Positions 53,917 through 57,117 of a DNA stretch of 64,000 nt are shown piece by piece (position 1 is the stretch's first letter; each line of letters opens with the position of its first letter). The position numbers and the translations under genes are program-made. The stretch comes from Thermorudis peleae (GTDB lineage Bacteria; Chloroflexota; Chloroflexia; Thermomicrobiales; Thermomicrobiaceae): assembly GCF_000744775.1 (NCBI RefSeq), contig NZ_JQMP01000003.1:1-64000 (forward strand). Reading direction: 5' to 3'. The notes below the pieces were generated by a model. It made no database searches and was not told the DNA's origin. It was given only the letters and a program-made list of their open reading frames with translations.

Positions 53917-55086
53917 GTGGAGTATGTCGTTGCCGACCGTGTTCGCCAGCTTCGCCCTTCGGCCACCCTTGCCGTAAGCGATCGCGCCCGCGCACTGCGC
54001 GCTCAGGGCATTGACGTCATCGACCTGGGCGGCGGCGATCCCGATTTCCCCACCCCAGCCCATATCTGCCAGGCTGCGGCCGACGCCCTCTTCAAAGGCG
54101 AGACACATTATGTCGATTCAGCTGGCATTCCACCCTTGCGCCGGGCGATCGCACGCAAGCTGGCCACCGAGAACGGCATCCAGGTGGAACCAGACCAGAT
54201 CATCGTCACTCCTGGCGGCAAGGCGGCACTCTTCGTCAGCATTCTCGCGCTCGTCGGCCCGGGCGACGACGTGTTGATGTTTGACCCGGGCTGGGTCTCG
54301 TATGAGCCGATGGTGGTCATGGCAGGTGCTAGCTGCCGTCATGTCTCGCTCTCGATCCACGACAACTACCGGATCACGCGCGAAGCGATTGAGGCTGCGC
54401 TGACCCCACAGACCCGCGTTGTCATCTTGAACAGCCCGAATAACCCGACGGGGCGGGTGGCAACCCGCGAGGAGCTTGAGGCACTGGCAGCTGTTGCCCA
54501 GGAACGAAACCTGATCGTCATTTCAGACGAGATTTACGAGAAACTGGTCTATGACGGCCGCGAGCACATCAGCATCGCCACGCTGCCGGGCATGGCGGAG
54601 CGAACGCTGGTTGTCAACGGCTTCTCCAAAGCCTATGCCATGACCGGCTGGCGCTTGGGCTACGTCGCTGGGCCGATGCCGCTGATCCGCCAGATCATGA
54701 AGGTGCACAGCCACTCGGCGACCTGCGCCACCTCATTCGCACAGTGGGGCGCAGTGACCGCGCTCGAGGGGCCACAGGACAGCATCGCCGCGATGGTCGC
54801 TGCCTGGGATCGACGGCGTCGCCTCGTCACGGAATGGCTGAATGCGGTGCCAGGATTCCACTGCCCCTTGCCGGAGGGCGCGTTCTACGTTTTCCCCGAT
54901 GTCAGCGGCACTGGGCTGAGCGGCGATGAGGTGGCAACACGGCTGATCGAGCAAGCCCACGTCGCGGTGACGCCGGGGAGCGCGTTCGGCACATCGGGCA
55001 GCAATTGCATTCGGCTCAGCGTTGCGACCGCCGATGCGTTGCTGGAGGAAGCGGTCAAACGGATCGCCCGCGTCTTCGGTGGCTAG
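53917..55086 (+). CDS. Class I/II PLP aminotransferase (aspartate aminotransferase-like)
   Basis: Fold-type I aminotransferase of 389 residues, subgroup of thermophilic aspartate/aromatic aminotransferases. It shows LGGGDPDFPTPAHI, NSPNNPTGRVATREEL, VISDEIYEKLVYD and the PLP lysine in NGFSKAYAMTGWRLGY. Asp or another amino acid as donor is likely. GTG 53917 follows AAGGAGG by six bases. It converges on the Nif3-like gene with a 4-nt overlap. Confidence 0.92.
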   Translation: MEYVVADRVRQLRPSATLAVSDRARALRAQGIDVIDLGGGDPDFPTPAHICQAAADALFKGETHYVDSAGIPPLRRAIARKLATENGIQVEPDQIIVTPGGKAALFVSILALVGPGDDVLMFDPGWVSYEPMVVMAGASCRHVSLSIHDNYRITREAIEAALTPQTRVVILNSPNNPTGRVATREELEALAAVAQERNLIVISDEIYEKLVYDGREHISIATLPGMAERTLVVNGFSKAYAMTGWRLGYVAGPMPLIRQIMKVHSHSATCATSFAQWGAVTALEGPQDSIAAMVAAWDRRRRLVTEWLNAVPGFHCPLPEGAFYVFPDVSGTGLSGDEVATRLIEQAHVAVTPGSAFGTSGSNCIRLSVATADALLEEAVKRIARVFGG

Positions 55087-55940
55087 TGGGCTGGCACCTG
55101 CGGCGCACTTGTGCCCGCTTCGACGCCGATTAACCGCACGATCTCGACGTCATACTCGGCGAGGACGGTAAGATAGCGATTGATGCCGACGAGGTCGCCG
55201 GGCAGGTGCCCCATCACCACGACGTTGCCCCGGGCATCACGGAGTGCTTCAAGCTCAGCCGGCGCAAGGTGCAGGTAGAGCACGGTGCCGACGCCGTGGG
55301 CGAAATAGGCCCGGGCGACCGCTGCGCCGCCGTTGGTTCCTGCACCGTGGACAACGGCAATCCGTCCAGCCGGACGATCGACTGCGCCGACGGGCACCAT
55401 CGGCGGCATTGGTGCTGTGGCGAACTCCGGAATCGTTAGCAGCGCATCGAGCACGTCCTGGACAAGCGGCTCGCGACCAAGCGAGGCACAGTGCCGCTCG
55501 ATTGTTTCCGCGATGACCCGCCGACCAACCTCGTCGAGCGGAAGATGCAGATTGAGGAACGGCAAGCCGAGCAAACGGGCAACAGCCGGCGTTTGCTCGT
55601 AGTTCTGGGCATGGTGCTGGAGCGTCAGCCGCCGCACGAGCGGCGCGATCGCCGCTTTCGCTTCCTCGCGCGGCACGCCGTGCTCAACCATCAGGTCGAC
55701 ATGTCGCGCGAGAACGTCGACAAAGTGGACGACCGCGTCACCACCAGCCGGATGGTGCGCCAGCACGCCGTCGCAGCCGAGCTCGCGTGCAAGCAGCAAC
55801 TCGGCAGGCCCAACATCAAGGGCAACCAGGAGACGGCGGATCCCATCTCCTGGGACGTAAACCGCGCTATCGCCCGGCAACTGGCGCATCCCAGCCATAT
55901 CGAGCGCGCACTGAACCATCACATCAGTACTGACTGGCAT
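55083..55940 (-). CDS. Nif3-like dinuclear metal centre protein
   Basis: A 285-residue member of the NIF3/GTP cyclohydrolase I type 2-like family, with two-metal sites of unclear activity. Metal-binding stretches are DGVLAHHPAGG and the C-terminal VVHGAGTNGG and VVMGHLPGDLVG. ATG 55940 has GGAGGAGGGG seven bases upstream; the open frame beyond it is spurious. Confidence 0.8.
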   Translation of the reverse strand: MPVSTDVMVQCALDMAGMRQLPGDSAVYVPGDGIRRLLVALDVGPAELLLARELGCDGVLAHHPAGGDAVVHFVDVLARHVDLMVEHGVPREEAKAAIAPLVRRLTLQHHAQNYEQTPAVARLLGLPFLNLHLPLDEVGRRVIAETIERHCASLGREPLVQDVLDALLTIPEFATAPMPPMVPVGAVDRPAGRIAVVHGAGTNGGAAVARAYFAHGVGTVLYLHLAPAELEALRDARGNVVVMGHLPGDLVGINRYLTVLAEYDVEIVRLIGVEAGTSAPQVPAH

Positions 55941-56052
55941 GCAACGTCCCCTCCTCCATGGTTGTGGCTCGCCATCGCTTTCAATCACGAAGTATGCTTG
56001 AGCGGCAGACGGCCGCATGCCGGATCGCGGCCCTGGAGGAGTGTCTGCACTG

Positions 56053-57117
56053 ATGGATAAGCGCGACATTGTGCGTCTGACGACACTCGCCCACTGTGCT
56101 GGGTGAGCGGGCAAGCTCGGGCCCGAGGCATTGGCGCAGGTCCTGCGCCCGCTCGAGCGCTATCATGATCCGCACGTCCTGGTCGGTCTGCAGACCAGCG
56201 ACGATGCGGCTGTCTACGCCGTGCGCGATGACCTGGCGCTTGTCCAGACGCTCGACTTCTTCCCCCCGATCGTTGATGATCCCTTCACGTTTGGGGCGAT
56301 CGCTGCGGCTAATGCGCTGAGTGATGTGTACGCGATGGGCGCGATGCCGATCCTTGCGCTCAACATTGCAGCCTGGCCTGACAGCCTGCCGCTCGAGCAA
56401 CTGGCCGACATTCTGGCCGGGGGTGCGAGCAAGGCCGCCGAGGCCGGTATTGTCGTTGCCGGAGGACACACCGTCACCGACGACGAGCCGAAGTACGGCA
56501 TGGTGGTCACCGGCGTAGCACACCCGCAGCAGATTTGGACGAAAGCTGGGGCACAGCCCGGTGATGTGCTCTTCCTCACCAAGCCGATTGGCACAGGCGC
56601 GATCAGCACGGCGTTGAAGGCCGGCACCGTCGCCCCGGAGCACCTAGATCAAGCGGTTGCCTCGATGTTACGCCTCAATAAACGTGCAGCCGAGCTCCTG
56701 CACGATTTTCCGGTGCACGCCTGCACTGACATTACTGGCTATGGGCTGATCGGCCACGCGATGGAAGTAGCACAGAAGAGCGGCGTTCGCCTCGTGATTG
56801 TGGCCGAGGCAGTGCCGCTGCTCGACGGTGCCGTAACGTACGCCCAGGCCGGCTACCTCCCCGGCGGCATGCGCCGCAACCGGGCCTATTACGCCGAAGG
56901 GCCGGGCAACCTGGTGGACTGGGACAGCGCCATTCCACCAGTGCTCTGGGACCTGTTCTTCGACCCTGTCACATCGGGCGGGTTGCTGTTCACGCTACCG
57001 CCGACGGCCGCCGAAGCAGCCGAGCGCGCGTTTGCCCACGCAGGCGAACCGCTCTGGCGCATTGGCTGGGTCGAGCCCGGTCTTGGCATCCAGGTTGTGA
57101 CCCGCGACCGCCCCTAG
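56053..57117 (+). CDS. selD: Selenide,water dikinase (selenophosphate synthetase) with in-frame TGA selenocysteine
   Basis: Makes selenophosphate from selenide and ATP for selenocysteine or selenouridine synthesis. ATG 56053 opens LTTLAHCAG, then TGA (56104-56106, codon 18), then AGKLGPEALAQVLRPL. The TGA sits exactly where SelD has its catalytic Cys/Sec (E. coli Cys17), and Lys21 matches the essential Lys20. Downstream are TSDDAAVYAVRDD, VAGGHTVTDDEPKYG and ACTDITGYGLIGHAMEV. With Sec the protein is 354 residues, normal length. A naive call would begin at TTG 56131 and lose the active site. GGAGGAG precedes the ATG. Confidence 0.92.
56133..56149 (+). promoter_or_regulatory. Candidate bacterial SECIS hairpin in selD
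   Basis: A 7-bp stem (56133-56139 with 56143-56149) with apical GTC starts 26 nt after the TGA. The top reads GCAGGTCCTGC in RNA-like form, strikingly like the apical GCAGGUCUGC of the E. coli fdhF SECIS. The TGA-to-loop distance of ~33 nt is in the bacterial range. SelB would bind here to deliver Sec-tRNA. Confidence 0.7.

Follow-up and report, generated by a model that had tools for sequence, protein, structure and literature searches.

Selenophosphate synthetase (selenide, water dikinase; SelD) uses a cysteine as its catalytic residue in most characterised enzymes. In E. coli SelD (PDB 3u0o), Cys17 and Lys20 are the residues needed for activity, and the Aquifex aeolicus enzyme (PDB 2yye, 2zod and 2zau) is itself a selenocysteine (Sec) protein. 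Of the SelD genes detected, 19% encode Sec, in every case at this position (PMC4561486). As to the RNA signal, the SECIS of E. coli fdhF has the stem GCA-GGUC-UGC with a bulged U, and its loop lies 18 nt from the UGA. The general bacterial SECIS model (the bSECISearch consensus) is wider: it describes an apical loop of 3–9 nt on an upper stem of 4–16 bp, a G at loop position 1 or 2 in the pattern N1-G-[G/U]-N-N2 with N1-N2 pairing, a distance of 16–37 nt from UGA to the apical loop, and a free energy of at most -7.5 kcal/mol (PMC13188914). The selD gene of Thermorudis peleae described here is of a known kind; the part worth specialist attention is the placement of its SECIS together with a tandem helix. 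The SECIS lies farther from the UGA than usual and behind a second hairpin, which is less expected than Sec itself.

A selD gene with an in-frame UGA

The window, that is, the whole stretch of 64,000 nucleotides analysed, comprises bases 1–64000 of contig 3 of a 2.93 Mb genome. On its plus strand, selD occupies 56053–57117: the frame starts with ATG at 56053, reads MDKRDIVRLTTLAHCAG-UGA-AGKLGPEALAQVLRPL..., and closes with a TAG stop ending at 57117. The single in-frame TGA of this frame is codon 18 (56104–56106); translated with TGA as Sec (U), the product has 354 residues. A GGAGGAG at 56035–56041, 11 nt before the ATG, is the likely ribosome-binding site, as read from the sequence.

The read-through protein scored 381.8 bits against the TIGR00476 selD profile (cut-off 125), covering positions 1–310 of 311, and contains the Pfam domains AIRS and AIRS_C. 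Its alignment with E. coli SelD (3u0o) ran over the whole length (E = 1.9e-75) and placed U18 and K21 on C17 and K20; the positions that follow the catalytic residue are AG here and GC in E. coli. A. aeolicus SelD belongs to the same family, has Sec at the same column and differs from this SelD by sequence divergence only (2yye alignment, 1.2e-63). The nearest titled relative, a Thermomicrobiaceae MAG, is 70% identical in SelD. This selD is a typical representative of the large, well-described family of Sec-containing SelD, and the first-pass annotation, which had put the TGA of codon 18 at the catalytic Cys of SelD, was right on this point. A plain ORF search returned only a 328-aa frame from TTG 56131, without U18 and K21; calling selD with Sec hence corrects standard ORF finding, which yields this frame minus the catalytic residue. 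Divergent from selD, on the minus strand at 55083–55940, lies a gene (MPVSTDVMVQCALDMAG...) that resembles the Nif3 family and had no Pfam match at 0.001.

The UGA codon is shared by relatives

A SelD match was present in 115 of 158 genomes of the class, almost always with a TGA inside. The alignment with Cys- and Sec-containing relatives that the first-pass annotation had called for showed TGA at the UGA column in 105 of the 110 SelD loci read in the class, and TGC in the other five. At this column, TGA also occurs beyond the class, in Clostridia, Coriobacteriia, Eremiobacterota, Deltaproteobacteria (Desulfuromonadales) and others. Wherever the codon was not TGA, within or beyond the class, it was TGC or TGT, i.e. 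Cys (5/110 class loci and 16 distinct outside rows). SelB was found in 105/115 class genomes with a SelD match versus 11/43 without one, the two lists having been compared by hand.

These counts bear on two other explanations of the interrupted frame. A sequencing error, a frameshifted pseudogene or a nonsense mutation, with a SelD that is broken or begins at TTG 56131, would agree with the standard ORF list, in which the 328-aa frame from that TTG is the only one. However, over 100 different genomes share the same TGA, the peptide that precedes it (RLTTLAHCAG) is conserved, and a start at TTG 56131 would lose both the catalytic residue and the nearby essential lysine; a full Sec machinery in the genome (below) speaks against a broken SelD as well. 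Since 105 of 110 class loci share the TGA, it is neither an error nor the mark of a pseudogene, and we regard this explanation, refuted by the relatives, as having practically no chance of being correct. Reading of the UGA as Trp or Cys, through suppression or a changed code and without Sec, would account for the open frame and for nothing further. The presence of tRNA-Sec(UCA), SelA and SelB, the membership of the UGA genes in known selenoprotein families, and Cys as the only substitute at the UGA column among relatives make it very improbable; a changed genetic code was rejected given the Sec machinery and the sole substitute.

The five class relatives with TGC in selD are G028, G133, G142, G147 and G150. 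Four of the five have kept selB, indicating that a genome can go on using Sec after SelD itself has lost it.

Selenocysteine machinery and further UGA genes

The expectation that selA, selB and tRNA-Sec would be encoded was confirmed by a genome search, and the absence of selB or tRNA-Sec, named beforehand as the observation that would count against Sec, was not what we found. The gene for SelA lies at C3:1243721 (559 bits) and that for SelB at C4:557957 (333 bits), the latter with the C-terminal winged-helix domains SelB-wing_2 and SelB-wing_3; tRNA-Sec, with anticodon UCA, is at C3:1479230 (73 bits; gathering score 47). A genome-wide family search gave no second SelD above the family cut-off, hence the single SelD encoded requires Sec.

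Further UGA genes were sought via families and two short sequence patterns. Two genes for the formate dehydrogenase alpha subunit, L094 (C1:627068-628240) and L095 (C3:418299-419498), contain one in-frame TGA each. Both read NQARI-U-HSSTVPGLGARLG and share an identical SECIS core (CCCGGUCUGGG), CCC-GGUCU-GGG, with the loop 18 nt past the UGA. They have the fdhF-type spacing and loop and are likely truncated in the standard annotation, as had been suspected of other UGA genes from the window alone. The 11-mer of this core, CCCGGTCTGGG, does not occur again in the genome. A second genome match of GCGCAGGTNCTGCG, at C1:252588, was dismissed as chance: it lies close to the 3' terminus of an unremarkable frame (RAAQVLRLRLSA*) and has no in-frame TGA at the right distance. 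Directly upstream of the formate dehydrogenase in L095, we noted a long frame (L095:907-2600) with a zinc motif of four cysteines (CPTCSTARN...CPTCGTAEDHDRRV) at its end; it had no Pfam match and resembles TnpB-type transposon proteins.

Taken together, it is very probable, on comparative grounds, that selD encodes a selenoprotein in which a SelB-bound hairpin directs Sec to the UGA, and that the only SelD of this organism needs its own product. SelB carrying Sec-tRNA(Sec) would bind the GGUCC loop of a hairpin at 56133–56149 as the ribosome reaches the UGA at 56104–56106, and Sec would be inserted at residue 18, the place of the catalytic cysteine in most characterised SelD. The enzyme would then make the selenophosphate that SelA needs for more Sec-tRNA(Sec), which would close a feedback on SelD itself. 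Sequence comparison establishes the reading frame and its family, the conservation of the UGA, a hairpin that is conserved and covaries, the whole machinery and two other UGA genes with a similar loop; from these we infer Sec insertion, binding of SelB to the hairpin and the feedback. How such self-dependence is started would have a simple answer, the inheritance of SelD through division. Dependence on a SelD that requires its own product would hold for the class as a whole.

A SECIS hairpin 32 nt past the UGA

A hairpin about 33 nt from the TGA had been predicted from the letters, and one is present at 56133–56149 on the plus strand: GGCGCAG-GUC-CUGCGCC, with the loop GGUCC at 56139–56143 beginning 32 nt past the UGA. 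Compared with the general model (PMC13188914), the loop has 5 nt on a 6-bp stem (or GUC on 7 bp), it follows the pattern as G-G-U-C-C with G56139 and C56143 able to pair, and both the 32-nt spacing and the free energy of -12.1 kcal/mol are within range. All four constraints of the model thus hold for this hairpin; the model has no spacer helix, a point to which we return below. The likeness to the fdhF SECIS claimed at first pass holds for the loop and fails for placement and stem. Here, the sequence is GCA-GGUCC-UGC as against GCA-GGUC-UGC in fdhF, the loop lies at 32 nt instead of 18, and the 7-bp stem is perfect, lacking the bulged U; the fdhF type, taken as a GGUC loop at 18 nt with a bulged U, does not describe it. 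The formate dehydrogenase SECIS of the same genome (L094, L095) resembles that of selD in having GGUCU on a G+C-rich stem, but has its loop at 18 nt.

We compared the stability of the hairpin region with synonymous recodings of the same peptide, drawn with each row's own codon usage. The window's -12.1 kcal/mol gave z = -3.2 (p = 0.015). Within the window's order, the mean z was -2.3 and 21 of 34 rows fell below 0.05, whereas the four rows with Cys (mean z -0.3) were not more stable than their recodings. The 57-nt stretch as a whole was unremarkable (z -1.5), and its unconstrained minimum free energy (MFE) structure has a different pairing; the hairpin appears in the fold once the first few nucleotides are omitted, as if they were under the ribosome. 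The case for the hairpin therefore rests on comparative evidence. Searching the Rfam covariance models with this part of selD gave no match up to E = 1.

Because free folding of the whole stretch was uninformative for SECIS classes, we analysed ungapped columns with synonymous recoding. Across 39 diverse Sec rows, 96% of the cells of the distal helix were paired and five of its seven pairs showed compensatory changes. In 19 Cys rows, pairing was 43.6%, no better than in slid or shuffled controls. As an example of compensation, GGCGCAG/CUGCGCC of the window corresponds to UUGCUCAA/UUGAGCAA in Sedimentibacter. Judged by these comparisons, the distal hairpin is real: its helix covaries across phyla among the Sec rows containing it, and pairs at chance level in Cys rows. 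Moreover, the residue coded by the loop is Val (GTN) in 69/69 rows with the distal hairpin and varies elsewhere. The RNA hairpin thus seems to constrain the protein here, fixing the residue at the loop.

Two SECIS placements and an upstream helix

We detected the distal hairpin, with a GGUNC loop at 32 nt, in 69 of the 146 distinct Sec rows. This distal class was picked by its hairpin, which makes its pairing score circular in that comparison; the taxon groups and the Cys control above are free of this circularity. The remaining rows nearly all form a helix from nt 12–16 and 22–26 past the UGA, with a CGGGN loop at 16 nt. In 27 such proximal rows, the proximal helix was paired in 100% of cells, with compensatory changes in one pair, and the distal helix in 39%. 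Placement also tracks third codon positions: most proximal rows encode Gly-Pro as GGG CCG, and the distal rows are mixed in these codons. By family, f1–f5 (the window's order) and f10–f14 are mainly distal, and f6–f9 mainly proximal.

The formate dehydrogenases do not divide in this way. All 30 loci read, from distinct class genomes and from both SelD-SECIS groups, have a GGUCU loop at a spacing of 18 nt, as does E. coli fdhF in spacing. With the same formate dehydrogenase SECIS in both groups, what looks like one type of SelB would read the SelD signal at 16 nt in one group and at 32 nt in the other. We found no description of the two SelD placements in the openly readable literature. They bear on the question of what distance from the UGA a bacterial SECIS tolerates, and why.

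A composite SECIS might answer this question. We tentatively propose that in the long-spaced genes a helix of ~14 nt folds up ahead of the SelB hairpin and shortens its effective distance from the UGA to the 18 nt that the formate dehydrogenases of both groups use. With the helix subtracted, the effective spacing was 17–20 nt in 57 of 69 distal rows (mode 18), a range that was set after the distribution had been seen, the reading itself having been formed on the same data. An upstream helix with an effective spacing in this range and an energy of -4 or lower was present in 56/69 distal rows compared with 21 ± 3 in synonymous recodings; among representatives below 70% identity, 11 of 18 had such a helix compared with 4.5 ± 1.7 after recoding (maximum 9 in 300 runs). 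Furthermore, a G at either of the first two upstream-loop positions is kept by 72 of 77 rows with short spacing versus 18 of 69 with long spacing, suggesting that the helix stays while the SelB signal moves.

By these comparisons, the upstream helix is under RNA-level selection in the distal group, but it is weak in this window. Here, CUCG[GGCC]CGAG at 56116–56127 (plus strand; -4.2 kcal/mol), at the site of the relatives' spacer helix, is not above synonymous recodings (p = 0.515). The helix is likewise weak in Dehalococcoidia rows (-1.4), its register varies, and the published model admits 16–37 nt without any spacer helix (PMC13188914). The helix might instead be a remnant of the proximal placement, or it might slow the ribosome. 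The broader picture, which we would put somewhat short of an even chance, is that Sec-SelD genes of many phyla carry tandem hairpins, namely a spacer helix from ~10–12 nt past the UGA whose loop has lost the SelB signal, followed by the GGUN hairpin at 32 nt; a sister group would signal from the loop of the first helix, the signal having moved between helices in evolution. A spacer hairpin is a plausible refinement of the SECIS model, suggested by sequence comparison, and we found no description of a spacer helix in a SECIS in the openly readable literature. If true, SECIS prediction and Sec-site engineering would gain a rule of effective, not linear, distance.

We also noted a variant of the distal hairpin in four members of the window's family (L112, L113, L114 and L125), GGC-GCAG-GUN-CUGC-A-GCC, in which one A is bulged on the 3' side of the stem, the mirror of the bulged U in E. 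coli fdhF.
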